Below, piece after piece: positions 331 through 46,609 of a DNA stretch of 46,706 nucleotides. Source of the stretch: Parcubacteria group bacterium Greene0416_36 (GTDB lineage Bacteria; Patescibacteriota; Patescibacteriia; VMEV01); the NCBI GenBank assembly GCA_007375725.1, contig VMEV01000008.1, forward strand, positions 1-46,706, written 5' to 3'. The position numbers were made by a program, and so were the translations under genes. The notes beneath the pieces are model-generated. The model was not told the DNA's origin, searched no databases, and was given only the letters and a program-made list of their open reading frames with translations. How positions within the stretch are numbered: the stretch's first letter is position 1; each line of letters starts with the position of its first letter.

Positions 331-425
331 GGGGCATTGCCCAGGGCGCACACATCCCACTTCGCCCTAAGGCGGGCTACGAGGGACAAGCATAGGTGCG
401 CCCCTACGGGAGGGCGTGATGGGAC
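331..425. repeat. Remnant of GC-rich palindromic repeats
   Basis: A GC-rich island in otherwise AT-rich intergenic DNA (183-445 holds no gene I can support). It contains CATAGGTGCGCCCCTACGG, the reverse complement of a segment inside rmlD at about 21711-21729, and a short dyad CGCCCTAAGGCG. It looks like decayed or nested copies of the palindromic element family found elsewhere in the window. Confidence 0.55.
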
Positions 426-3800: not shown

Positions 3801-3848
3801 AGAAATCAATTACGAATGAAGAATTACGAATGACGAATGAACAGCCAG

Positions 3849-3932
3849 CAACAAATCCCCCTTAGTCCCCCTTTGACAAGGGGGAAACAGCGCCCTCCCT
3901 TGTCAAAGGGAGGGTTGGGGAGGGATTTGTTG
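3849..3932. repeat. 84-bp inverted-repeat element, copy 2, abutting glyS
   Basis: Same element as at 2411-2494, with intact CAACAAAT and ATTTGTTG ends. On the minus strand its first base directly follows the last base of the glyS stop codon (TAG at 3935-3933). The downstream side (3801-3848) is a run of ATTACGAATGACGAATGA-type simple repeats before the M16 peptidase. Confidence 0.9.
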
Positions 3933-5324
3933 CTAAATACGCGCTCGAAGATAATTTTCCAGCTCCGCAGCCAAAATCGTCTCCTGGGTCATGGTATCGC
4001 GGTGGCGGACGGTGACGGTGCCCTTCTCGAGCGTGTCATAGTCGACGGTGATGCAAAAAGGGGTACCAATTTCGTCCTGGCGGCGATAACGCTTGCCAAT
4101 GGAACCGGATTCATCGTATTCTACGGACCAAAAATTAGAGAGAGTGCCGTAAATTTCCTTGGCGCGCTCGGCCAGACCATCTTTTTTCATCAGAGGCAAA
4201 ATCGCAGCTTTGATCGGCGCGACCGATGGCTTGAATTTGAGCACAATGCGCTTTTCTTTATTGCCCTTGGAATCCGTGACCTCTTCTTCCGTATACGCCT
4301 GATCCAATAAAACATAGATCACGCGCTCGAGGCCGAAAGAGGTTTCCAAGACGGTCGGCACAAATTTCTCTTTAGTTTCCGAATCAAAAAACGACAAATC
4401 TTCCCCGGAATACTCCGAATGGCGAGACAGATCCCATACGCCACGGTGATTGAGGGGGCTGATCTCCAGCCACTTCCCTCCCGTGAGCAGGATTTCCAAA
4501 TCATGCTGCTCCTTGGCATAATGCGACATTTCTTCTTTTGGAATTTTGCGGTAGCGGATCTTGGATCCGTCGATGCCAAGTCCGCCGGTCAGAAGAACAA
4601 GGAAAAATTCTTTCCAATAGTCATACCAAGTCAGCGCTTCAGCGTCCCGAGTAAAAAATTCGAACTCCATTTGATTGAATTCGCGGGTTCGAAGCACAAA
4701 CTGCTTGGTAGTGACCTCATTTCGAAACGCTTTTCCAATTTGGAGTACGCCAAAAGGCATCTTTCTACGGGCGTAATTGACCAAATTTTTATATTGCAAA
4801 AAAATAATTTGACATGTTTCGCCTCGTAAATAGGCCTCTTCCTTGCCGGATTCCGTAGCGCCCAGCTTGGCGGTCATCATGAGGTTGAAACTCTCAAGTT
4901 CGGTGAATTCATTTCCCGCAGGACTTTTTAGTTTATGTTCGACAATCAGCCGCGCCATTTCCTCAAATTTCATTCCAGACGTAGAAATACCTAATTTTTC
5001 TTCGATCAAATGATCGGCGCGATAGCGGATATGGGTGAGCTTATCTTCCACTAGAGGATCATTGAAAGAAGCAACATGGCCCGAGGCTTCCCAGGTTTTG
5101 GGATGACAAAAAATCGCGCCGTCCAGCAAAAAAACATCCGGGCGCTTCTGCACCAACTCTTTCCTCCAGAGATTTTTGATATTCTCGGCCAAGAGGGCGC
5201 CCAGAGGTCCTAAATCATAGGTGCTGGAAAAGCCTCCATAAATCTCGGAAGAAGGATAAATGAAGCCTCTTCTTTTGCACAGCGAGACAATTTCCTCCAG
5301 CCTCTTATTAAATTCATCCGTCAT
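3933..5324 (-). CDS. glyS: Glycyl-tRNA synthetase, single-chain class II type
   Basis: 463 residues; charges tRNA-Gly with glycine using ATP. It is the single-chain (GlyQS-like, alpha2) type, not the separate alpha/beta form. The N-terminus reads CKRRGFIYPSSEIYGG followed by TYDLGPLG, the class II motif 1 region. Motif 2 is seen in FRNEVTTKQFVLRTREFNQM and motif 3 in SFGLERVIYVLL. The C-terminal anticodon-binding domain is present (APIKAAILPLMKK to VTVRHRDTMTQE). The stop codon abuts repeat copy 2. No T-box leader is visible upstream. Confidence 0.96.
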   Translation of the reverse strand: MTDEFNKRLEEIVSLCKRRGFIYPSSEIYGGFSSTYDLGPLGALLAENIKNLWRKELVQKRPDVFLLDGAIFCHPKTWEASGHVASFNDPLVEDKLTHIRYRADHLIEEKLGISTSGMKFEEMARLIVEHKLKSPAGNEFTELESFNLMMTAKLGATESGKEEAYLRGETCQIIFLQYKNLVNYARRKMPFGVLQIGKAFRNEVTTKQFVLRTREFNQMEFEFFTRDAEALTWYDYWKEFFLVLLTGGLGIDGSKIRYRKIPKEEMSHYAKEQHDLEILLTGGKWLEISPLNHRGVWDLSRHSEYSGEDLSFFDSETKEKFVPTVLETSFGLERVIYVLLDQAYTEEEVTDSKGNKEKRIVLKFKPSVAPIKAAILPLMKKDGLAERAKEIYGTLSNFWSVEYDESGSIGKRYRRQDEIGTPFCITVDYDTLEKGTVTVRHRDTMTQETILAAELENYLRARI

Positions 5325-6898: not shown

Positions 6899-6940
6899 AT
6901 AAGAAATTACGAATTAAAAATTACGTAATGACGAATGGAA

Positions 6941-7023
6941 CAACAAATCCCCCTCAATCCCTCTTTGACAAGGGGGAGGTTGCTACCCCCTCCCTTGTCA
7001 AAGGGAGGGTTGGGGAGGGATTT
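6941..7023. repeat. 84-bp inverted-repeat element, copy 3 (partly coding)
   Basis: Starts with CAACAAATCCCCC but ends in GGGATTTAAA instead of ATTTGTTG, so the distal end has diverged. The metallo-hydrolase reading frame runs into it from 7023 and stops inside it (TGA at 6956-6954), so the element supplies the last 22 codons of that gene. Confidence 0.88.
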
Positions 7024-10052: not shown

Positions 10053-10061
10053 AGACAATTA

Positions 10062-10160
10062 CGAATGACGAATTACGAATTACAAATGGGCAACAAACAG
10101 CAATCATCTCCGAGTATGGGCTGTTTAATTCGTCATTCGTCATTCGTAATCCGTAATTTT
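10062..10160. repeat. ATTACGAATGACGAATT simple inverted repeat
   Basis: TTACGAATGACGAATTACGA on the left faces TTCGTCATTCGTCATTCGTA on the right around a 45-base centre. Shorter runs of the same motif occur at 3806-3840, 6902-6938, 21053-21090, 26047-26080 and 26225-26258, always between genes. Confidence 0.7.
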
Positions 10161-10562: not shown

Positions 10563-13500
10563 CTACGCTTTATACGGGCAAATCGATTTAAAATCGCAGT
10601 ATTGGCAAACTTGAGGCGAGGGTTTGGCAATGAATTGACTCTTTCGGATCGCTTCGATGGTTTCCAAAATTTCCTCTTTCAATTTTAACAAATTGTCCGG
10701 AGTTCCCACAAAAGAAATTTTTTTGTTTTCTTCCAGATAATAAAACGAAACCTTTCCTACTTTTTTCTGGAGAATTTCCTCGGCCGCCCACTGATAGATG
10801 AGAAGCTGTTTTTTATTTTCAGGATCGATCTTGGCCTCATCCTTGGGCACTCGGCCGGTTTTGTAATCCACAATCTCGACCGTCCCGTCCCCCAGATCAT
10901 CGATTCGGTCGATTTTTCCGGACAAACGATAGCCGCCAATTTTGAGACTGAATCCCTGCTCCAAAGACAGGACAAGGGGCCAAGCGGATTCATGAATACG
11001 GTAAAAATCACGGAGTATTTTCCGCCCCTCTTCTTTGCGCTCTTCCTGCCTCTCTTTCGTCTCGTACCAATCATCGATCCAAGCGGATTCGTAGAGGGAT
11101 AAGAGGGTGTCGAGAGAAGGGGCGATCTGCACGGTAGGGGCACCAAACAACCCCAACTGCGGACTCCCCCGCTTATCGATCATCTGCTGAAAGAAACGTT
11201 CGAAAGTCAAATGCATAGTTTGTCCAAAGCTGAACGTTTCTCGTCCGGGAGTCGGAATCTTGAGGAGATGCGCATAGCGGTACTGCCAGGGACAGGTCGC
11301 GAAGGCCTTAATCTGGGTGAAGCTGAATTTTTTGGGAATGAGTTTTTCCCAATCAAAAAAGTCATCGCCCTCGATTTCCTTGCCATGGCCGGAGGAACCG
11401 TCCGGAGTCAAAATAATTTTCCGAGCGAGCTTCTTTCCTTCCGATTCCGCGTCTTTGTATCCTAATTCCACGAGGAATCGCGACATTTTTTTCTTCCGAA
11501 CGCCTCCGTAATTTTCCGCGCGGGTGAAATACAAACCTTCCTTGGCCCGAGTACAGGCCACATAAAATAAGCGCCGCTCTTCTTCGAGATGAAAATCGCC
11601 TCCCGGCAAAATTTCTTTGATCAGAGGCGCGGGGAGAGGCAAAGCCTCAGATCGGTGGTTGGTCGGGAAACGCTGGTCCACGAGATTGACGATAAAAACA
11701 TGGCGGAATTCGAGTCCTTTGGAGGCGTGAACCGTCATGATCTTGACCGTATCCGGATCCCAATCGCTTTCGTCGCGGAGCGTCCCCTCGTCCCCCGCTT
11801 CGTCCAACCATTCCATGTAGCGGAGAAATGCGCCGAGGGAATGCTCTTTATTTTCTTTTTCAAACAATCGAACCATCTTCAAAAATTGATTGATATAACT
11901 GATATTTTCCGCGTAGATTTTATCGCCGAGACCCTCGAGATAGCGCAGATACCCGCTCTCGCTGATAAAGCCATGAATGAGCGAGAATACGCGAAGTCCC
12001 CGCTTGGCCTTCGCCGAATGATCTACGAGCGACGACAAAATCCGGGCACATTTTTTGAGCGTTTCTTCGCCAAATCCCATAGCCGGCGCTTTTTCCAGAA
12101 CCGTGTACATATGCCACCCTTTTCTCCTGGCAATGGACATGAGATCGACCATTTCGCCATGGGTGAGCTCCCAAAAAGGCATGGATAAAACCCGGTACGC
12201 GCTCACCGTGTCCGGATAAAAATGCATCCAGCGCAGATACGCCAAAATATCCATGATCGCCGGCTTGGCATAGAGGCCGCGGGAAGACAGGAGCGTGAAC
12301 GGGATTCCCTCCCGAGAGAGAGAATCGATAAACGCCTCAGAATAATGATTGGCACGAACGAGAATCGCGAAATCCTTCCATCCGAGAGTGGCGTCTTTGG
12401 CCCGACACGCCTGGATTTTTGCCACCACGCCGTCGGCCTCTTCCTGCTGAGAGGGAAACGAAAGGTGGTCGATCACCCCGGCCTCGGGTTTGGAGGAGAG
12501 GAGTTTCTTGGAGATAGTCTGCCCCAGATGTAAGGGCTGAAAATTTTCAGCCCTTACATCGGCGACCGAGGATAAAGACTGCTGCATCTGATACTCCAAT
12601 CGATTGGGATTATTATGCAAAATGAATTGATAGGATAGATCCAAAATATTCTGGGTACTGCGGTAATTTTCAGTGAGAAACACCTGATCGCTCGATGGAT
12701 AACGTTTTTTGAATTCCAAAATATTGCTCATCGAGGCTCCTCGGAAACGGTAAATACTCTGGTCATCGTCGGCCACGACCGTGAGATTGTTGCGCGGAGT
12801 CGACAGAAGCCGGACCAGTTCGAACTGCGCCCAATTGGTATCCTGAAATTCGTCCACCAGCACATATTGAAATTGATTTTGATACTTGGCCAAGATCGCC
12901 GGGCGCTCGCGGAATAATCGGAGGGTAAAACGAATCAAATCGCCAAAATCGAGAGCGCCGTTTTTGTATAAAATTTGCTGATATTGATGATAAGCCGAGG
13001 CTATTTCTCTCGTCTTTTTTGCTTCCAGAAATCGTGTCTGGGCCTCTTCCCGATTGGCATCGCTGGCCAAGGCAGCAAAATCTTCGGCTTCGGCGAAATT
13101 CTTCTCGGCCCAATCCCAATATTCTTTCTCGCCGATTTCCTCGTCCTTGGCTCTGGAAAAATGAGAGAGCAATTCGTGAATGAGTGATCCCGGATTGCCT
13201 CTGGGCGCCAGATAATCAAATGAAAACGCCTCCCAATTCTGCCGAAACATCATCCATTGCCGGACGGAATCCAGAAGCGTGAAATCCATGGACAAACCGA
13301 TTTCGAGGGCATGCGCGCGCAGGATCCGCTCGCAAAAAGAGTGGAAGGTGGAAACCCACAGATCGACATAGCCATAAGGCAGAAGCCGGTCCAAACGCTC
13401 TTCCATCTCGCTGGCCGCCTTCTCCGTGAAGGTCAAAGCCAAAACCGAATCCGTGGGAACCTTCCGCTCCATGATCAAATGCGCGATCCGACGAGTGACC

Positions 13501-13604
13501 ACGGTCGTCTTCCCCGTCCCCGCCCCCGCGACAATTAGAAAAGGACCTTCACCATGGGTGACGGCTTGGAGTTGAGAGGGATTGAGGCCTTCGAGGAGGG
13601 ACAT
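10563..13604 (-). CDS. UvrD/PcrA-like helicase fused to Fe-S RecB-type nuclease
   Basis: 1013 residues. The N-terminal two-thirds is a superfamily 1A helicase: Q-motif GLNPSQLQAV, Walker A GAGTGKT at 27-33, DEFQDTN (motif II), DDDQSIYRFRGA (III), TVHASKGLEF and RRLFYVACTRAK (VI). The C-terminal part is a PD-(D/E)XK nuclease: GKIDRIDDLGDGTVEIVDYK gives the Asp...Asp-x-Lys site, QLLIYQWAAEE follows, and a CPWQYR cysteine plus a terminal CQYCDFKSIC trio can hold a 4Fe-4S cluster as in AddB. It likely processes double-strand DNA ends in one chain. ATG 13604 is the true start; the open frame further upstream is repeat copy 4. A 34-bp palindrome lies in frame at codons 349-359. Confidence 0.93.
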   Translation of the reverse strand: MSLLEGLNPSQLQAVTHGEGPFLIVAGAGTGKTTVVTRRIAHLIMERKVPTDSVLALTFTEKAASEMEERLDRLLPYGYVDLWVSTFHSFCERILRAHALEIGLSMDFTLLDSVRQWMMFRQNWEAFSFDYLAPRGNPGSLIHELLSHFSRAKDEEIGEKEYWDWAEKNFAEAEDFAALASDANREEAQTRFLEAKKTREIASAYHQYQQILYKNGALDFGDLIRFTLRLFRERPAILAKYQNQFQYVLVDEFQDTNWAQFELVRLLSTPRNNLTVVADDDQSIYRFRGASMSNILEFKKRYPSSDQVFLTENYRSTQNILDLSYQFILHNNPNRLEYQMQQSLSSVADVRAENFQPLHLGQTISKKLLSSKPEAGVIDHLSFPSQQEEADGVVAKIQACRAKDATLGWKDFAILVRANHYSEAFIDSLSREGIPFTLLSSRGLYAKPAIMDILAYLRWMHFYPDTVSAYRVLSMPFWELTHGEMVDLMSIARRKGWHMYTVLEKAPAMGFGEETLKKCARILSSLVDHSAKAKRGLRVFSLIHGFISESGYLRYLEGLGDKIYAENISYINQFLKMVRLFEKENKEHSLGAFLRYMEWLDEAGDEGTLRDESDWDPDTVKIMTVHASKGLEFRHVFIVNLVDQRFPTNHRSEALPLPAPLIKEILPGGDFHLEEERRLFYVACTRAKEGLYFTRAENYGGVRKKKMSRFLVELGYKDAESEGKKLARKIILTPDGSSGHGKEIEGDDFFDWEKLIPKKFSFTQIKAFATCPWQYRYAHLLKIPTPGRETFSFGQTMHLTFERFFQQMIDKRGSPQLGLFGAPTVQIAPSLDTLLSLYESAWIDDWYETKERQEERKEEGRKILRDFYRIHESAWPLVLSLEQGFSLKIGGYRLSGKIDRIDDLGDGTVEIVDYKTGRVPKDEAKIDPENKKQLLIYQWAAEEILQKKVGKVSFYYLEENKKISFVGTPDNLLKLKEEILETIEAIRKSQFIAKPSPQVCQYCDFKSICPYKA
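12527..12560. repeat. Perfect 34-bp palindrome inside the helicase gene
   Basis: GATGTAAGGGCTGAAAA is followed directly by its exact reverse complement. It is read in frame as DVRAENFQPLH (residues 349-359), between SLSSVA and LGQTISKK, in a region between helicase motifs. It looks like an inserted mobile palindrome. Confidence 0.85.
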
Positions 13605-13649
13605 AGGGAAATTAGGCTTTAGGAATAAGGATTTAGGAAACAGCCGGAA

Positions 13650-13734
13650 CAACAAATCCCCCTTAATCCCCCTTTGACAAGGGGGAAACAAGCTCCCTCC
13701 CTTGTCAAAGGGAGGGTTGGGGAGGGATTTGTTG
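13650..13734. repeat. 84-bp inverted-repeat element, copy 4
   Basis: Intact CAACAAAT and ATTTGTTG ends. It lies 45 bases upstream of the helicase start. The helicase frame happens to stay open through it, so automated annotation could extend the gene by about 48 codons into the repeat. Confidence 0.9.
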
Positions 13735-13814
13735 TTAGAAACAGCCAAACAAAAAACCGGACGTTCAGATCCAGTTTATTTTATAGAAATTTTGAAAAAT
13801 GGCTAGGGGGGATT

Positions 13815-17173: not shown

Positions 17174-17179
17174 AAAAAA

Positions 17180-17263
17180 CAACAAATCCCCCTCAGTCCC
17201 CCTTTGACAAGGGGGAGGTTGCTACCCCCTCCCTTGTCAAAGGGAGGGTTGGGGAGGGATTCA
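17180..17263. repeat. 84-bp inverted-repeat element, copy 5
   Basis: Fills almost the whole gap between the cvpA stop (17265) and the tatD start (17173). The distal end reads GGGATTCATC, so the ATTTGTTG terminus is lost, as in copy 3. The two altered copies also share the internal variant GGGGGAGGTTGCTACCCCC and may form a subfamily. Confidence 0.88.
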
Positions 17264-20322: not shown

Positions 20323-21048
20323 CTAAAACAAAAGATTTTTTGCTAATTTTTCTTTGGCGAGATTATTGGCATAGAGCAGAGCATCAAAAGTTCCCGCATC
20401 GACCCACTCTCCCGCGACCATACGGACATCCAGCTCTCCCCGCTCCAAATACTTCCGGTGCAAATCCACGATCTCGAGTTCTCCGCGCGCAGATGGCTTG
20501 AGCTCCTTAGAAAATTGAACGACGCGATGATCATAGATATAAAGACCTGGAATGGCATAATGGCTCTTGGGGATTTTGGGTTTTTCTTCGATGGAAAGCA
20601 CTTTCATCGCGGCAGAAAATTCCACCACGCCGAAACGCTCGGGATCTTTGACCTCCTTCGCAAAAACGCGCCCGCCGCTTCGGAAAGAACGGATATCTTC
20701 CGTGAAATCATATTCAAAAATATTATCGCCCAAAATCAAGGTGACCGAATCGCCGCACAAAAAACTCTCGCCAATGGTAAAGGCCTGCGGCAGCCCCTCG
20801 GGCTTATCCTGAATTTCATAGGTGAATTTCGCGCCGAATTCTTTGCCAGATCCAAGAATATTGAGATAATCCCCAGCCCTCTCCGGTGCCACAATAATCA
20901 AAATCTCCTTGATCCCCGCCCGAAGCAAAGTATTGAGCGGATAATAAATCATGGGGCGATTGTAGATGGGCAGGAGTTGCTTAGAAGTGATTTTTGTCAG
21001 AGGCGACAAACGAGTACCGCGGCCTCCGGAGAGGATGATGCCTTTCAT
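20323..21048 (-). CDS. rmlA: Glucose-1-phosphate thymidylyltransferase (short form)
   Basis: 241 residues; makes dTDP-glucose from glucose-1-phosphate and dTTP, the first step to dTDP-L-rhamnose. The nucleotidyltransferase signature is GGRGTRLSPLTKITSKQLLP (residues 7-26). It continues with NRPMIYYPLNTLLRAGI, TYEIQDKPEGLPQAF and the LGDNIFEYDF metal site. It is about 50 residues shorter than the E. coli enzyme because the C-terminal allosteric helices are missing, as in the known short class. ATG 21048 (MKGIILSGG) is the start; the frame upstream is simple-repeat DNA. rmlD lies immediately upstream. Confidence 0.94.
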   Translation of the reverse strand: MKGIILSGGRGTRLSPLTKITSKQLLPIYNRPMIYYPLNTLLRAGIKEILIIVAPERAGDYLNILGSGKEFGAKFTYEIQDKPEGLPQAFTIGESFLCGDSVTLILGDNIFEYDFTEDIRSFRSGGRVFAKEVKDPERFGVVEFSAAMKVLSIEEKPKIPKSHYAIPGLYIYDHRVVQFSKELKPSARGELEIVDLHRKYLERGELDVRMVAGEWVDAGTFDALLYANNLAKEKLAKNLLF

Positions 21049-21121
21049 AATCAATGAAAAATGAAGAATTAAGAATGAAGAATTAAGAATAAAACAGCCC
21101 CCTATGTCTAAATGCCAAAGA

Positions 21122-22180
21122 TTATAACTGTTCCAAAAATTCGGCAAGGGCATCGTGGTAGTGTCTCAATTTTGGAAATTTAGTATTGGCCAAGGCGGAA
21201 TAAGAGGGACGCCGGGCTGGACGGGGGAAGGTGGAGGCGGGGACGGGGGTGATCAGAATTACGCCGGGCGTAGGGGCGGGTTTGAAACCCGCCCCTACGG
21301 GATGGGACAAATTAAACAACTCCACAACCCCATCATACCAGCTCGCCTCCCCTTCATTGGGCAGATGATAAATCCCAAAAGGATATTTTTCTTCGATTAG
21401 TTTCTTAGTGGCCTTGGCAAGATCAGGGGCATATGTAAAACACCCTACCTCATCATTTACGGCTTTTAATTCTTCTTGTGTTTGCGACAACTCCAGCATC
21501 TTGACGAAAAAACTCTTCTTGCCGGATCCGGCGGGGCGGCCGAAGAGGCGGGAGAGGCGGATGAGGTAAAAGCCACTCGACATATTGGCCGTTTGTAGAG
21601 ACGCGCCATGGCGCGTCTCTACAAAGGCGAGAGCCAAAACTTTCTCCCCCTCCCATTTTGACTGACCATAACGAGATAACGGCGAGGGCGGTGCGGTTTC
21701 ATCATAACCCCGTAGGGGCGCACCTATGTGTGCGCCCGTCCCGACCCCGACGGCATCCCCATCGCCCCCAAAAACATAATCCGTGGAATAATGCACCAAA
21801 ATCGCACCGATTTTCGCGACGATTTCGGCCAATTTTCCCGGCACATCGCGATTCAATTTCAAAGCTTTCTGGTATTCTTCATCCGATTTTTCGCAGACAT
21901 CGACGTCATTGTAGGCGGTGGCATTAATAATCACACTGGGTTTTAATGCGGCTATTTTTTCTTCGAGAAGAGGAAAATTCGTGACATCGAGGTCTTCTTT
22001 ATCCCACCCCACTACGCCTTCATCGCTGACGCTCAATGAAGAGCTACCCCCCTCCGCTAAAAAGCTTCGAGCGGGCACGCGCGGGGCAGGCCCTACATTC
22101 CCTTTACAAGAGAGGGAGAATGCAAGAACCAGCTCTTGTCCGAGCATGCCACGGGAGCCGAGGATGAGGATTTTTTTCAT
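21122..22180 (-). CDS. rmlD: dTDP-4-dehydrorhamnose reductase with four repeat-derived inserts
   Basis: 352 residues against about 290 usual; last step of dTDP-L-rhamnose synthesis (NADPH-dependent). Core motifs are intact: ILGSRGMLGQELV (cofactor loop), VIINATAYNDVD, VHYSTDYVFGG and the catalytic pair YGQSK (Tyr171, Lys175), then FPRPARRPSYSAL. The extra length is four stretches that translate palindromic repeats: residues 26-57, 143-157, 186-196 (FVETRHGASLQ) and about 295-306 (VGAGFKPAPTPG). All keep frame and all fall in loops between core elements, so the enzyme may still fold. The start codon lies one base beyond the stop of a 53-residue gene. Confidence 0.92.
   Translation of the reverse strand: MKKILILGSRGMLGQELVLAFSLSCKGNVGPAPRVPARSFLAEGGSSSLSVSDEGVVGWDKEDLDVTNFPLLEEKIAALKPSVIINATAYNDVDVCEKSDEEYQKALKLNRDVPGKLAEIVAKIGAILVHYSTDYVFGGDGDAVGVGTGAHIGAPLRGYDETAPPSPLSRYGQSKWEGEKVLALAFVETRHGASLQTANMSSGFYLIRLSRLFGRPAGSGKKSFFVKMLELSQTQEELKAVNDEVGCFTYAPDLAKATKKLIEEKYPFGIYHLPNEGEASWYDGVVELFNLSHPVGAGFKPAPTPGVILITPVPASTFPRPARRPSYSALANTKFPKLRHYHDALAEFLEQL
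21269..21299. repeat. Palindromic repeat in rmlD, GGGCGGGTTTGAAACCCGCCC type
   Basis: CGTAGGGGCGGGTTT and AAACCCGCCCCTACG pair around a single G. Read in frame it contributes the GAGFKPAPT segment near residues 296-304 of RmlD. Confidence 0.85.
21592..21625. repeat. Palindromic repeat in rmlD, TTTGTAGAGACGCGCCA type
   Basis: Perfect 34-bp palindrome: TTTGTAGAGACGCGCCA followed by its reverse complement. It is read as FVETRHGASLQ (residues 186-196). The same core recurs at 45989-46034 and 46515-46556. Confidence 0.92.
21714..21737. repeat. Palindromic repeat in rmlD, GTAGGGGCGCACCTATG type
   Basis: Arms GGGCGCAC and GTGCGCCC surround CTATGT. Read in frame it gives GTGAHIGAPLR of RmlD. A second partial copy lies at 331-425 in the intergenic region before the tRNA. 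Confidence 0.75.
22010..22105. repeat. GC-rich insert in rmlD related to the repeat behind the tRNA
   Basis: About 96 bases giving residues 26-57 of RmlD (KGNVGPAPRVPARSF onwards). It shares GACGCTCAATGAAGAGCTAC and GGGGCAGGCCCTAC with the 564-631 repeat. It replaces a loop that is only a few residues long in ordinary RmlD proteins. Confidence 0.65.
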
Positions 22181-22884: not shown

Positions 22885-23886
22885 TCATCGGTGTCCATAC
22901 TGCCTCTCATAATACTCTCTGTACTCCCCGCTCTTCACCTTCCTCCACCACTCCGCATTTTCCACATACCACTTCACCGTCTGGGCAATCCCCTCTTCAA
23001 AAGCAATCGCCGATTTCCATCCAAGTTCGCGCTCGACCCTGGACGGATCGATCGCGTAGTGGCGATCGTGACCAGGGCGGTCTTTGACGAATTCGATAAA
23101 AGATTCATCTTTACCAAGAGCTTTCAAAATGAGACGCACAATTTCAATATTGGGCAATTGTTTGCGAACGCCGACGCAGTAAGTCTCGCCGATTTTGCCT
23201 TTTCGCAAAATAGTATCTATGGCCGAGCAATGATCGATAACATGAAGCCAGTCACGGACCTGCAGTCCATCTCCATAAACCGGCACTTTTTTTCCTTCGA
23301 TTAAATTGGTAATAGCGAGCGGGATTAATTTCTCTGGGAAACAATAAGGCCCGTAATTATTGGCGCAGTTGGAGATCGTAATAGGCAAATTGAAAGTATG
23401 AAAATAGGCACGGACGAGATGATCCGAGGCCGCCTTGGACGCGCTATAAGGGCTTCGGGGATTATAGGGGGTATTCTCATCGAAGGGCTTCCCTTCCACC
23501 ACGCCGAAGACTTCATCGGTGGAAACATGATGAAAACGCTTGCCGCCATGTTGGCGCGCAGATTCCAGCAAGGTATAAGTCCCCAAAATATTAGACCGGA
23601 CGAAATTGCCGGAGTCAAGAACCGAACGGTCCACATGGGTCTCGGCCGCAAAGTGAACAACGGCACCGGTGTCTTTCATGAGAGAATCGACCAAGGATCG
23701 GTCTGTAATATCGCCTTTGACAAATTTATAACGGGAATTATTTTCAATCTCTTTCAAATTCTCCAAATTTCCCGCATACGTCAAAAGATCCAGATTCATG
23801 ACTGAATCTTCAGGGTATTTTGCCAAAATAGTGCGGATAAAGTTGGAGCCGATGAATCCGGCGCCGCCGGTGATGAGTAGATTCAT
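22885..23886 (-). CDS. rmlB: dTDP-glucose 4,6-dehydratase
   Basis: 333 residues, full length. It converts dTDP-glucose to dTDP-4-keto-6-deoxyglucose with bound NAD. Motifs: GGAGFIGSNF (Rossmann, residues 7-16), VHFAAETHVDRSV, VSTDEVFG with the catalytic Asp-Glu pair, and YSASKAASDHLVRAY with the Tyr-x3-Lys dyad; NNYGPYCFPEKLIPL and DRPGHDRHYAIDPSR are typical of RmlB. The gene ends in TGA, evidence for the standard bacterial code. Paired inverted repeats lie upstream of the start codon (23910-23937). Confidence 0.97.
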   Translation of the reverse strand: MNLLITGGAGFIGSNFIRTILAKYPEDSVMNLDLLTYAGNLENLKEIENNSRYKFVKGDITDRSLVDSLMKDTGAVVHFAAETHVDRSVLDSGNFVRSNILGTYTLLESARQHGGKRFHHVSTDEVFGVVEGKPFDENTPYNPRSPYSASKAASDHLVRAYFHTFNLPITISNCANNYGPYCFPEKLIPLAITNLIEGKKVPVYGDGLQVRDWLHVIDHCSAIDTILRKGKIGETYCVGVRKQLPNIEIVRLILKALGKDESFIEFVKDRPGHDRHYAIDPSRVERELGWKSAIAFEEGIAQTVKWYVENAEWWRKVKSGEYREYYERQYGHR

Positions 23887-26046: not shown

Positions 26047-26165
26047 AAAAATAATGAAAAATTAAGAATTAAGAATTAAAAATGATGCATCAGTTGATTT
26101 TATTCATCATTTGAAACTCACAATCTTTTTTATTTTATAAAAAACAGATGATCCTTTTTGAAATG

Positions 26166-26246: not shown

Positions 26247-26777
26247 TTAATTCTTAATTAATCTCGGATGCTTCCCATCCTTCTCCGACACAATCGGATC
26301 CTTAATCGGCCAGGGAATAGCCAAATCCGGATCATTCCAGAAAATGCCGCCGTCGTGGGCGGGTGAATAATAGTTGGTGCATTTATAGCAAAAAATCACG
26401 TCTTCGGAAAGGGTCAAAAATCCGTGGGCGAATCCGGGGGGAATCCAGAGTTGACGGTGATTCTCACCTGAGAGTTCCACCCTCTCAAATTTTCCAAATG
26501 TCGGTGATTCTCGACGAATATCCACGGCCACATCCACGACTTTGCCTCGAAGAACAGACACGAGTTTCCCCTGAGCCATCGGATCTTTTTGGAAGTGAAG
26601 GCCGCGAAGCACGCCTTTTTTGGAAAAAGACACATTGTCCTGGACAAATGGCCCCGTAATCCCCGCCTCGGCATACTTCTTTTCAGAGAAACCTTCGTGG
26701 AAATAACCGCGAGCGTCGGAGAAAACGGCGGGAGTGATGAGAACAAGGCCGGGAAGGGAGAGAGTGGTGAGGATCAT
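26247..26777 (-). CDS. rmlC: dTDP-4-dehydrorhamnose 3,5-epimerase
   Basis: 176 residues, cupin fold. It epimerises the 4-keto-6-deoxy sugar at C3 and C5. Family motifs: DARGYFHEGFSEKKY, FVQDNVSFSKKGVLRGLHFQ (catalytic His in GLHFQ), GKVVDVAVDIRRESPTFG (catalytic Asp region), WIPPGFAHGFLTLSED and YKCTNYYSPAHDGGIFWNDP (Tyr). It completes the rml set, but is separated from rmlB by proS and the NYN gene. Confidence 0.96.
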   Translation of the reverse strand: MILTTLSLPGLVLITPAVFSDARGYFHEGFSEKKYAEAGITGPFVQDNVSFSKKGVLRGLHFQKDPMAQGKLVSVLRGKVVDVAVDIRRESPTFGKFERVELSGENHRQLWIPPGFAHGFLTLSEDVIFCYKCTNYYSPAHDGGIFWNDPDLAIPWPIKDPIVSEKDGKHPRLIKN

Positions 26778-26904: not shown

Positions 26905-28668
26905 CTACGGAATCCTCGCCACCATCGTCTCAAACAACACCCTCTCCCCCTCTTTCCTGAATCTCACCATTTTACCGGTTGTGGTGGGAATCGTCTCGTA
27001 CTGATCGAAAATGAAATTGCCGATGCCGCGGAAAATGGGCTTATTTTTGTAGATGAAGAGGTCTCCCGGGACATGGCTGTGGGCCACGATGAGCGCGTCG
27101 GCTCCGGCGTCGATGAAGGATTGATATCGAAGGGTGTCGGAGTCTCGAGGGAGAGCCTGATATTCAGGGGCATCATGAATCAGAACCACGGTCATTTTGT
27201 CGGGCTCCGGATTATTTCGAAGGGTTTCCAGAACCGATCTTTGATCCGGCGCGATATTTCTAGGCGTATTGGAAACGGGATTGAGAAGATGAGTGAGGGT
27301 CAAAATTCGGATCTTGTCATTGCTCCAGCCATCAGTCCCTACAGCAATCTCGCCGCTTTGGCCGAGAAGCCGTTTCGTTTCCGCCAGACTCCCCGCACCT
27401 TGATCCCACATATGATTATTTTCAATGCCCCAGTGAGTGGCCAAATTTTTAAGTGATGACCAGCGGGATAATAAATTGCAGAAAATAAAAATATTGGAGG
27501 AAGGCGTGCATTTTTCGCGCAGCGGACCCTCAAGATTGACCAGACGGATCCCCTCGCCTGACCACCAATTTTTAACTTGTTCAGGCAAGACATTTTTTCG
27601 CAGTCCCCGCGTCACCGTCACATCGCCAGCAATTGCAAGATCTTCTGGACCCAGTAGCGCATTTTGATACCAGACCATGGCAAAATGACTCGTGGTTTCT
27701 TTTACTGTTAAATCATTCCCTAAAATTGCGGAATTTGTGTGGCGAAGGGTCGAAGGATTGTAGAACCCGCCGCGATCCGCGAGATTGGCCAAAACCCAGA
27801 GACATTGAGGGCAATCGCTTTGCTCTGGATTTTGAAGTGCGGCAATTCCGGCCAAATCTTTTGAAAAAAGTATTTTGGCGGTGGCTTCATCTTTTTTCTC
27901 AGCTTCAGGTAACGTCAAGTAATGCGAAAAATCCGAACTCACAATCAAAAGGGTGTCCGGAGTCAATAATTCTCCAAATAATTGAAGCAAAGATTCTTGG
28001 TCTACTTTCCACGGCCGAGTGACCGACAAAGCGACCGGAGTCACGGGAACACCCGGAAAATAATGTGCGATATAAGGCAAAACCGCGTAAATACCATGCT
28101 CGTTTTTGAACAAGGCCTCGTCTTCGGAGACTAAGGGCGAGGATCGGAGGGTTTGGATAGCGACAGGGTCGGCCAAAACATCTCCAAAAAAAGTTTTATA
28201 GCCGGCATTCACCGTGCACACAAGAGTGGGACACTTAAAAAAATGATCCGGAGAAAGCAATACAATTTTCTCAAATTTCTGCCCCTCGAGCATTTTGATT
28301 CCAGAAGCCATGGATCCCGTAGCCATGAGATGGTGAGGAACAACTGCCGCTCGAATCATAAAATCAGGCGAAGGCTCGATATTTTTATCAGCCCAATAGA
28401 AACCTGCCATGAATTCTTCTATCTGAGAATAAGGATTTGGATAGACATGGGTTATCTGTTCATCACGACTAGGCGCTAAATGTAGGGACGTTGCATGCAA
28501 CGTCCCTACATTTAGCGCCATCACATCATCAGACAAATCAACAGGGGACACGGTTGATTCTCGTATCAATTGACTCTCTCTATAGAGACGAGAAAAAACA
28601 AAAAAGAACAATGCCGCTATAGCTAGCAGCATTGTTCCCCCAATAAAAATAAGCTTTTCGGTCTTCAT
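26905..28668 (-). CDS. Membrane-anchored fusion of Memo (AmmeMemoRadiSam B) and CapA-like domains
   Basis: 587 residues. One N-terminal membrane helix (LIFIGGTMLLAIAALFFFVF), then a Memo-like domain (about 95-345): AAVVPHHLMATGSMASGI, IVLLSPDHFF, NEHGIYAVLPYIAHYFPGVP and LIVSSDFSHY supply its conserved His/Asp/Cys-type residues. A CapA/PgsA-like metallophosphatase domain follows (about 350-587): LAIAGDVTVTRG, IRLVNLEGPL, DALIVAHSHVPGDLFIYKNK and GIGNFIFDQY. CapA domains act in poly-gamma-glutamate systems; Memo's function is unsettled. Start overlaps the upstream DUF3160 stop by 4 bases. A 48-bp palindrome is read in frame at residues 50-66. Confidence 0.88.
   Translation of the reverse strand: MKTEKLIFIGGTMLLAIAALFFFVFSRLYRESQLIRESTVSPVDLSDDVMALNVGTLHATSLHLAPSRDEQITHVYPNPYSQIEEFMAGFYWADKNIEPSPDFMIRAAVVPHHLMATGSMASGIKMLEGQKFEKIVLLSPDHFFKCPTLVCTVNAGYKTFFGDVLADPVAIQTLRSSPLVSEDEALFKNEHGIYAVLPYIAHYFPGVPVTPVALSVTRPWKVDQESLLQLFGELLTPDTLLIVSSDFSHYLTLPEAEKKDEATAKILFSKDLAGIAALQNPEQSDCPQCLWVLANLADRGGFYNPSTLRHTNSAILGNDLTVKETTSHFAMVWYQNALLGPEDLAIAGDVTVTRGLRKNVLPEQVKNWWSGEGIRLVNLEGPLREKCTPSSNIFIFCNLLSRWSSLKNLATHWGIENNHMWDQGAGSLAETKRLLGQSGEIAVGTDGWSNDKIRILTLTHLLNPVSNTPRNIAPDQRSVLETLRNNPEPDKMTVVLIHDAPEYQALPRDSDTLRYQSFIDAGADALIVAHSHVPGDLFIYKNKPIFRGIGNFIFDQYETIPTTTGKMVRFRKEGERVLFETMVARIP
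28472..28519. repeat. Perfect 48-bp palindrome inside the Memo-CapA gene
   Basis: GGCGCTAAATGTAGGGACGT plus TGCA, then the exact reverse complement. It is read as ALNVGTLHATSLHLAP, in the linker between the membrane helix and the Memo domain. All 24 pairs match. Confidence 0.93.
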
Positions 28669-31181: not shown

Positions 31182-31202
31182 AGAAAAAGGTTAACAGCAG
31201 AA

Positions 31203-31287
31203 CAACAAATCCCCCTTAGTCCCCCTTTGACAAGGGGGAAACAAGCTCCCTCCCTTGTCAAAGGGAGGGTTGGGGAGGGATTTGTTA
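31203..31287. repeat. 84-bp inverted-repeat element, copy 6, abutting the Nudix gene
   Basis: CAACAAAT start; on the minus strand its first base directly follows the Nudix stop codon (TAA at 31290-31288), as with copy 2 and glyS. It lies 22 bases before the DUF3160 start. Confidence 0.9.
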
Positions 31288-31767
31288 TTACTCCTCCCAA
31301 TACTCCATATAAAACGCCTTATCATTGTCCAGAACCGTCATACATTTAGAGAGTCTCTGATAAAGGCGGTCGGGAACGAGCTTTTTGGATTCTGGAAGAG
31401 TGGCCAATTTGTATTCCAGAATCTCTCCTGGCTGAAGTTTGATCCTTTTTACCTGCTTATCATCCAAAAAACCGCCGAAAAAAATAAAATGAAGAGAATC
31501 CTCGGTATCACGGCTTTGATAGCCAACGCCTAAAAATGGAGGGTTTTTGATGGCGAGGCCGACTTCCTTTTTGACCTCGCGGATACAGCCGTCTTCGGGG
31601 GACTCACGGTCCTCGACTACACCACCCGGAAGCGTCCAGTAATCCTTGCCTTCCGACAAGACAAGCAATATTTTGTCATGCCCCTGCTCTTTCTTGATAA
31701 ACAAGGCGGCCGCCCCCACTTTTTTCTTTGGAATGTTTGGGATTTCTACTTCAGTTTTCTGGCGCAT
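31288..31767 (-). CDS. Nudix hydrolase-like protein with altered Nudix box
   Basis: 159 residues. The Nudix box is GGVVEDRESPEDGCIREVKK followed by EVGL: the Gly, the first Glu and the Arg-Glu pair are in place, but the first Glu of the EE pair is Lys (REVKKEVG). The fold is otherwise typical (GAAALFIKKEQGHDKILLVL, DYWTLPGG). Substrates could be nucleoside diphosphate derivatives; the Lys change may weaken metal binding and turnover. It lies just upstream of repeat copy 6 and the DUF3160 gene. Confidence 0.88.
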   Translation of the reverse strand: MRQKTEVEIPNIPKKKVGAAALFIKKEQGHDKILLVLSEGKDYWTLPGGVVEDRESPEDGCIREVKKEVGLAIKNPPFLGVGYQSRDTEDSLHFIFFGGFLDDKQVKRIKLQPGEILEYKLATLPESKKLVPDRLYQRLSKCMTVLDNDKAFYMEYWEE

Positions 31768-45254: not shown

Positions 45255-46187
45255 CTACAAATTCTTTTTCTTTTTCACCACAATCCCCGCTCTCCTCATC
45301 ATCCTAAAAGCCCAATCGAGCATTAAATTGAACGGCACAAGCAGCGACAAACCCATCCAGGCCATAAATGAGGCGTGTTTTTGGAAATAGAGAAGGAGAC
45401 TTCGGTCAAAGAGAAACTGTCTCCTCCCATATTGATTGAAGCTCTGTCCCTTATAGTGGACAATCGAGGCATCGGGGTAAAAAATGATTTTGTATCCCGC
45501 ATTTTTTGCCCGAAGACACCAGTCGACCTCTTCAAACCAAGCGAAAAATCGTTCATCCAGAAGGCCAATGGTGTCAAACACTTCCCTTTTGGCCAAAATA
45601 AAAGCCCCCATGAGTTGATCCACTTCCCGCACGCGATCATATTTAAAATCCTTCATGTAATACCGGCCAATCGGTCCGGATTTCGGAAAAAAATTGTGGA
45701 GCTTTAATAAAACAAGAGACTGGTCTAGAAAACCAGGAAAACGGCGGCAAGATTCTTGGAGAGACCCGTCCGGATAGAGCAATTTGCAACCCAAAACCTG
45801 ATACTGAGAATTTTTTTCCAGATACAAAACTGAATTCTCGAGCGATCGGTCAAGCACCACAGTATCGGGATTGAGGAGCAGAATATATTTTCCCGTCGCC
45901 ATTTTAATCCCCACATTATTGCCCTTGGCAAAACCGAGATTTTCGGCGGACGGAATTATTTTTAAAATACCATTTTGTATTTTTGACGCATCGTTTTGTA
46001 GAGACGCGCCATGGCGCGTCTCTACAAAACGATGTAGCATTTCCAACGTACCATCTCCAGACGCATTATCCACAACAATAACTTCAAATGTAAGATCTTT
46101 TGTCTCCTTATAAATTGACAATAAACACTGTTCGAGCAAGTCCCGTACTTTCCAAGAAACGATGATTATCGAGAGATCTATTAACAT
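45255..46187 (-). CDS. Glycosyltransferase family 2, rhamnosyltransferase-like, with repeat insert
   Basis: 310 residues, GT-A fold with a C-terminal hydrophobic part (MAWMGLSLLVPFNLMLDWAF). Motifs: SIIIVSWKVRDLLEQCL, the VIVVDNASGDGT nucleotide loop (Asp40), NLGFAKGNNVGIK, LLNPDT (metal-binding DxD-like) and LDERFFAWFEEVDWCLRAKN with the catalytic acid. The pattern fits the WbbL/RfbN-type rhamnosyltransferases, which suits the complete rml set in this window. Residues 54-64 (FVETRHGASLQ) translate a palindromic repeat, placed in the loop between the DNASGDGT strand and the next helix. Confidence 0.93.
   Translation of the reverse strand: MLIDLSIIIVSWKVRDLLEQCLLSIYKETKDLTFEVIVVDNASGDGTLEMLHRFVETRHGASLQNDASKIQNGILKIIPSAENLGFAKGNNVGIKMATGKYILLLNPDTVVLDRSLENSVLYLEKNSQYQVLGCKLLYPDGSLQESCRRFPGFLDQSLVLLKLHNFFPKSGPIGRYYMKDFKYDRVREVDQLMGAFILAKREVFDTIGLLDERFFAWFEEVDWCLRAKNAGYKIIFYPDASIVHYKGQSFNQYGRRQFLFDRSLLLYFQKHASFMAWMGLSLLVPFNLMLDWAFRMMRRAGIVVKKKKNL
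45989..46034. repeat. 46-bp palindrome in the GT2 gene, TTTGTAGAGACGCGCCA type
   Basis: Same core as at 21592-21625, with perfect pairing extended on both sides by CATCGT and ACGATG. Read in frame it gives HRFVETRHGASLQND, part of residues 52-66. Confidence 0.92.
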
Positions 46188-46291: not shown

Positions 46292-46609
46292 TCAAACAAA
46301 AAAATCATCTTCACGCCATTTTTTCGGATTAGAAATAATATATTCACGTATATTTTCCAATTCTTTTTTATCCCTGATAATACGATCATGAAAACGAGAC
46401 TGCCAGTAAAAAGAAGAAGAACCATTTTTTCGACACAAACGAACAACCGACCCTTTATATAAATTGATCGCCACAGACAAAGATGCTTTTTGTAACGGAC
46501 CAAACTGACGAATAGCATTTTGTAGAGACGCGCCATGGCGCGTCTCTACAAAATGCAAGAGAGCATGTACATGGTTAGGCATCACCACAAATACATCCAC
46601 CTTTATATG
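46292..46609 (-). pseudogene. REP-associated tyrosine transposase (RAYT), 5' end lost
   Basis: About 105 residues remain. The Y1 transposase HUH motif is in HIKVDVFVVMPNHVHALL. The C-terminal part, FYWQSRFHDRIIRDKKELEN then IREYIISNPKKWREDD, is typical of the group. The usual N-terminal 70 residues are absent: upstream of THIKVD the sequence changes to an IS-like end and meets a stop. Within the remnant, FVETRHGASLQ is again a translated palindrome, so a repeat of the class such enzymes are known to mobilise sits in the enzyme's own gene. The remnant is probably inactive. Confidence 0.8.
46515..46556. repeat. 42-bp palindrome in the RAYT remnant, TTTGTAGAGACGCGCCA type
   Basis: Perfect 42-bp palindrome: GCATTTTGTAGAGACGCGCC-A and its reverse complement. 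It lies about ten codons downstream of the HUH motif, in frame. Confidence 0.92.

Follow-up and report, generated by a model that had tools for sequence, protein, structure and literature searches.

An rmlD gene within an rml cluster encodes four additional segments

A preliminary description of this locus proposed that four stretches of the RmlD protein are translations of DNA repeats inserted in frame, which raises the question of where these segments come from and whether the gene that carries them is still functional. The window (the whole stretch of DNA analyzed, 46,706 nt) corresponds to C19, one of the 25 contigs that make up a 1.03-Mb genome with 44.7% G+C. RmlD was identified by Pfam (PF04321, E 2.7e-57), by sequence comparison with the PDB, and by its fold; on TIGR01214, the RmlD equivalog model, it reaches 192.4 bits, which is below the 224-bit cut-off, and its closest database relatives are Moranbacteria, Falkowbacteria, and other Patescibacteria. 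rmlA and an rmlB-type gene flank rmlD on opposite sides, and rmlC is 4 kb away:

20323-21048, minus strand: rmlA (likely start; mechanical ORF extension to 21153)
21122-22180, minus strand: rmlD, 352 aa, an ORF with four in-frame repeat inserts (Pfam, alignment, AlphaFold2)
22885-23886, minus strand: rmlB-type dehydratase
26259-26762, minus strand: rmlC (PF00908, E 2.1e-73)

The preliminary description had regarded a second intact rmlD as evidence against its reading. An insert-free RmlD-family gene does exist (C17:37678-38532, 292 aa, 34% identity), but it is not part of the rml cluster and has a lower score on TIGR01214 (177.8 bits, likewise under the cut-off). This paralogue could be an alternative source of RmlD activity.

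We aligned the window RmlD with 41 orthologues (37-53% identity, 273-320 aa in length, mean 288). Four runs of low occupancy, residues 25-52, 141-154, 186-200, and 295-306, are gaps in most of the orthologues; their lengths are approximate, as the comparison set has no relative closer than class level and hence no DNA-level empty site, and a search for a genus-level relative in the class-level sample and one scan of genome contigs found none. The boundaries proposed earlier (26-57, 143-157, 186-196, and 295-306) were right to within a few residues. The alignment rules out an ancient conserved domain as the source of the segments, the origin that had been named as incompatible with insertion. 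At site 2, four orthologues (L097, L098, L100, and L104) have a Cys-rich insertion of unrelated sequence; the few occupied orthologue cells at sites 1, 3, and 4 are mostly short extensions, and at site 3 the RmlD of G025 has REPPLNPPLGKGG, which is similar to the reading of another repeat of such kind. Since other orthologues carry insertions at sites 2 and 3, these look like permissive loops.

All alignment-invariant columns are retained in the window RmlD, including Tyr171 and Lys175, in agreement with the earlier claim that the catalytic and nucleotide-binding residues are intact. An AlphaFold2 model (pLDDT 86.5, pTM 0.87) keeps the RmlD fold, and its top PDB match is the RmlD structure 1vl0 (TM 0.90 by target length). 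Blocks of the core are mostly above 94 pLDDT and those of the inserts about 45-65; the low-confidence segments (42-46, 143-151, 194-196, and 297-303) all fall within the inserts and are modelled as loops, as the preliminary description had expected, and insert 3 in part lengthens a helix.

The insert DNA recurs in the window and across the genome

The DNA of all four inserts is found again elsewhere in the 1.03-Mb genome. The inserts map as follows:

22025-22108, minus strand: insert 1, residues 25-52, a composite of two repeat pieces (alignment, repeat matches)
21719-21760, minus strand: insert 2, residues 141-154, a stem-loop with a short loop (alignment, repeat matches)
21581-21625, minus strand: insert 3, residues 186-200, perfect palindrome 21592-21625, core 21595-21622 (VETRHGASLQ)
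21263-21298, minus strand: insert 4, residues 295-306, palindrome 21269-21299, core 21270-21298 (VGAGFKPAPT)

Within insert 1, the piece at 22058-22088 matches C11:3900-3930 (30/31), and the piece at 22005-22047, which overruns the alignment-defined insert, matches C18:88824-88865 (39/43); one is apparently nested within the other. Insert 2 (GGGCGCACACATAGGTGCGCCCCTAC) has about 7 relatives in the genome. Its repeat GGGCGCACACATAGGTGCGCCCCTACGGG at 21709-21737 reads GAHIGAPL, and the peptide GAHIGA recurs in UvrC and in a glycosyltransferase. Insert 3 (GTAGAGACGCGCCATGGCGCGTCTCTAC) is a 28-bp perfect palindrome with 10 exact genome copies including itself, 3 of them in the window, and 1 near copy, and insert 4 (GTAGGGGCGGGTTTNAAACCCGCCCCTAC) is a 29-bp perfect palindrome with 2 exact and 2 near copies. 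The proposal of four in-frame repeat insertions is upheld. The description of the repeats as palindromes fits inserts 3 and 4 and the stem-loop of insert 2, but not insert 1, in which a strong palindrome is absent.

Further elements in the window are as follows:

344-407, plus strand: insert-2-type element split by another repeat, with a copy of CAT on either side
12530-12557, unstranded: palindrome GTAAGGGCTGAAAATTTTCAGCCCTTAC, in frame within a UvrD/PD-(D/E)XK ORF (10563-13748, minus strand)
28482-28509, unstranded: palindrome GTAGGGACGTTGCATGCAACGTCCCTAC, in frame in a Memo/PGA_cap ORF (26905-28668, minus strand), within a 48-bp perfect palindrome
45998-46025, unstranded: a further copy of the insert-3 palindrome, the second in the window, in frame within a GT2 ORF (45255-46187, minus strand)
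46522-46549, unstranded: the insert-3 palindrome again, its third occurrence in the window, within a doubtful ORF of 102 aa

The two recurrences noted previously, at 331-425 and 564-631, correspond to the interrupted insert-2-type element and to a sequence resembling part of insert 1, respectively; the two further copies of insert 3 were absent from that account.

In-frame palindromes occur in many genes

Genome-wide, elements of the GTA[AG] type number 80 by a loose search and 61 by a strict 28-mer pattern. All six inner pairs are matched in 55 of the 61 28-mers of the source genome (G000), most of which are perfect palindromes without a loop. GTAG or GTAA is paired with CTAC or TTAC in nearly all listed elements, under a search pattern that demands YTAC at the far end and that elements with an unpaired tag would escape. 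The 28-mers are depleted from genes, as 21 of 61 lie well inside ORFs against 73% expected (p 3e-10). Their codon offsets in genes are distributed 12:9:0, the zero belonging to the frame in which TAA/TAG stops translation at once, and the same element is read in two ways, e.g., as VRAYCNTPL and as KGVLQYALT. Called genes contain 22 perfect palindromes whose arms measure 14 nt or more, versus 0.006 expected by chance.

The preliminary description had singled out rmlD as a collector of repeats. This does not hold, as dozens of genes show the same: about 39 of 825 ORFs, a set called by a simple hexamer method and hence approximate, contain one or another of the repeat types searched. By NCBIfam and PDB comparison, the repeat-bearing genes include Tgt (two sites), ArgRS, MurC, IleRS, TsaD, MutY, UvrC, and a MurB-DUF559 fusion. 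A constant net insertion of 30 nt was rejected: relative to orthologues, the gain is about 12-30 aa in RmlD, about 13-17 aa at the first site of Tgt, and only about 5-6 aa in MurC for an element of 9-10 residues, so some native sequence must have been replaced in MurC. In the MurB-DUF559 ORF (C16:27838-29400), a 102-nt repeat lies between the two domains and may have given rise to the fusion. Five GTAR palindromes, more repeat copies than in rmlD, are present in an ORF of 695 aa (C17:56388-58475) that resembles a membrane protein and matches no family.

These data bear on two other readings of rmlD. One is that the gene is decaying, with the C17 paralogue supplying RmlD activity while the window copy gathers insertions neutrally. 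The presence of that insert-free gene fits this idea, but four insertions without a frame break, the retention of every invariant residue, the position in the rml cluster together with an equivalog score above that of the paralogue, and the same kinds of insertion in other housekeeping genes make it unlikely. The other is that the loops added by the repeats are adaptive, having been selected for a role in regulation or in binding a partner. Repeat-like inserts do occupy the same loops elsewhere, in the G025 RmlD at site 3 and in the Tgt of G028; however, such loops may just be permissive, model confidence is low in the insert regions, and the DNA repeat itself determines the peptides, which come from two unrelated frames, so that we regard adaptive loops as highly improbable. 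Very probably, the rmlABCD set here includes a still-functional dTDP-4-dehydrorhamnose reductase gene, rmlD, into which mobile repeats, three of them palindromic, have inserted in frame on at least four independent occasions. Independence is suggested because the four belong to different families, and the enzyme is predicted to be active. We propose that short non-autonomous mobile repeats would insert throughout the genome and that selection would remove most genic insertions; the survivors would preserve the frame by their net length, take either of the palindrome's two stop-free readings, and sit in loops where between ten and thirty added residues are tolerated. Several unrelated repeats are absorbed by core enzymes (tRNA synthetases, MurC, Tgt, and RmlD), which offer natural tests of which loops tolerate insertions. 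Lineage-specific extra loops in proteins of such genomes call for caution, as they can be mobile DNA.

The repeats behave as mobile elements, and no resident Y1 transposase was detected

Mobility, as claimed in the preliminary description, is supported by scattered copies, nested insertions, and a patchy distribution. Two elements are interrupted by other repeats, so that each sequence exists in the genome both with and without an intruder. In GTAGGGGCACAGCGCGCTGTGCCCCTAC, GCT is repeated on both sides of the intruder, which adds a net 30 nt in frame; in the insert-2-type element at window 344-407, CAT is repeated. Such 3-nt duplications, both at nested insertions and in families other than the 28-mers, are evidence of mobility, and the rmlD insertions were probably transposition events. 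Around the in-gene 28-mers, inspection by eye revealed no constant direct duplication.

GTARGGGC-N12-GCCCYTAC is found in 34 of 381 class genomes with a patchy distribution, the source genome having the most (46), and a reversed control pattern is almost absent from the class genomes; a related pattern occurs in 33 of 380 phylum genomes. The inner arms vary between genomes, and copies within one genome are often alike. Of 16 elements sampled in other element-bearing genomes, 6 lie inside ORFs. The exact insert-4 palindrome is also present in 15 viral-contig stretches from IMG/VR (L244-L258; 53-70% G+C, higher than in the source genome), many times in open frames (VGAGFKPAPT), and that of insert 3 in one (L243; VETRHGASL); IMG/VR contigs are predictions, some of which may be host DNA.

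A resident RAYT/Y1 transposase was rejected as the mobiliser, as PF01797 has no match in G000; nor does it match in G092, G164, G194, G334, or G338, each with 7-14 elements. By hand count, RAYT/Y1 is present in 22 of 34 element-bearing genomes versus 203 of 381 overall, with no clear association. The mobilising enzyme probably acts in trans or has been lost. An Rfam search gave nothing near the gathering score.

Most intergenic copies lie within longer palindromes with unique flanks

Of 35 strictly intergenic 28-mers, 34 are extended by 4 or more further perfect pairs, which the unique flanks provide, and among the 21 genic 28-mers, 8 have 5 or more such pairs; the null probability of 5 or more flank pairs is 0.017 for intergenic and 0.0011 for genic sites. 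Longer palindromes with unique outer arms are found, e.g., at C15:72382-72441, at C18:69931-69994, and in the window at 28472-28519 and 45989-46034. Many of the intergenic flanks are A-tract/T-tract, like bidirectional terminators, and several are not. The explanation that long perfect inverted repeats are generally over-abundant in this genome was rejected: with the family excluded, their density is only slightly higher than in relatives (113 vs 78 per Mb).

The inverted flanks could have arisen by insertion into hairpin tips, by inverted copying as the element inserted, or by template switching afterwards. The first is favored in part because, in a few species, some REP dimers sit in larger, conserved palindromes (Di Nocera et al. 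2013, PMC3733652). Perfect hairpins are known products of template switching, which can also repair them (PMC8794818), and the inverted flanks of the intergenic 28-mers would suit a model in which switching during replication, not transposition, makes the palindromes and keeps them perfect, insertion being a side product of fold-back synthesis. As an account of the repeats as a whole it is improbable: identical multi-copy sequences and identical viral-contig copies require copying between sites, and 16 elements sampled in eight other genomes have only 0-4 flank pairs, without inverted flanks. Template switching may account for the flanks, not for dispersal. Tentatively, the GTAR...YTAC palindromes might move between phyla, possibly with phages, and be copied without a resident Y1 transposase, with hairpin-tip insertion or inverted flank copies giving the longer palindromes and the same process adding in-frame loops to core enzymes; we hold this fuller scheme to be possible but doubtful. 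The inverted flanks and the missing transposase make the mode of spread a testable question.

Comparison with known palindromic repeats

In-frame palindromes in proteins have precedents, chiefly in Rickettsia and some REP-rich bacteria. The Rickettsia palindromic elements (RPEs; Ogata et al. 2000, 2002) are described in PMC10969869 as several palindromic families, about 150 bp long and with a conserved peptide, RPE-4 and RPE-6 having CGTC ends; in a small genome, they are inserted in frame in metabolic genes that are unrelated to one another and that they seem not to inactivate. The elements described here share the in-frame insertion in protein genes. However, they are mostly 28-30 bp long with GTAG/GTAA rather than CGTC ends, they use two frames (12 and 9 cases) instead of yielding one conserved peptide, and four unrelated repeats occur within one 1.06-kb gene.

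GTAG REPs are palindromes of 20-40 bp with an unpaired GTAG at one end, beside a stem-loop, and often with RAYT transposases present; some are located in the genes uvrA, uvrB, and recB and in those of tRNA synthetases, and intragenic GTAG/CGTC REPs, including genes with two insertions, are reported from several bacteria (PMC3733652). Our 61 28-mers resemble them in size, palindromic structure, and copy number, but here GTAG pairs with CTAC, there is no or almost no loop (about 2-20 nt in GTAG REPs; insert 2, with its short loop, is the exception), the outer palindromes vary from site to site, and no Y1 transposase was detected. Because the unpaired tag and loop are missing and the usual transposase is absent, we did not file the elements as REPs, though they work like intragenic REPs or RPEs. 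The present data extend protein-coding palindromes to a Patescibacteria-type genome. Searches of an open library found no report of in-frame palindromes in Patescibacteria, which is not proof of absence, and a literature text search for the element sequences returned no relevant paper.

Two other classes of small repeats are comparable. MITEs are usually 70-300 bp. The likeness to them lies in non-autonomous repeats with inverted symmetry and possibly in the 3-nt duplications at two nested insertions; however, the elements here are far shorter, have no identified parent transposon, and show no constant duplication around the 28-mers. The small dispersed repeats of Nostoc are hairpin elements of 21-27 nt, often nested, and are similar to our elements by general description.

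Other repeat families

A highly repeated family of about 85-95 nt (CAACAAATCCCCCTTAGTCCCCCTTTGACAAGGGGGA...) occurs in the window at 2406-2497, 3844-3935, 6939-7022, 13647-13737, 17178-17261, and 31199-31290, and in frame in IleRS (C12:87780-90764; a 95-nt repeat) and in a glycosyltransferase-like ORF (C11:25630-26865). Loose tandem AATTACGAATGA/AAGAATTAAGAAT repeats are intergenic at window 21052-21099 (between rmlA and rmlD), 3807-3854, 10056-10103, and 26059-26106, and related tracts are present within about a dozen called ORFs.
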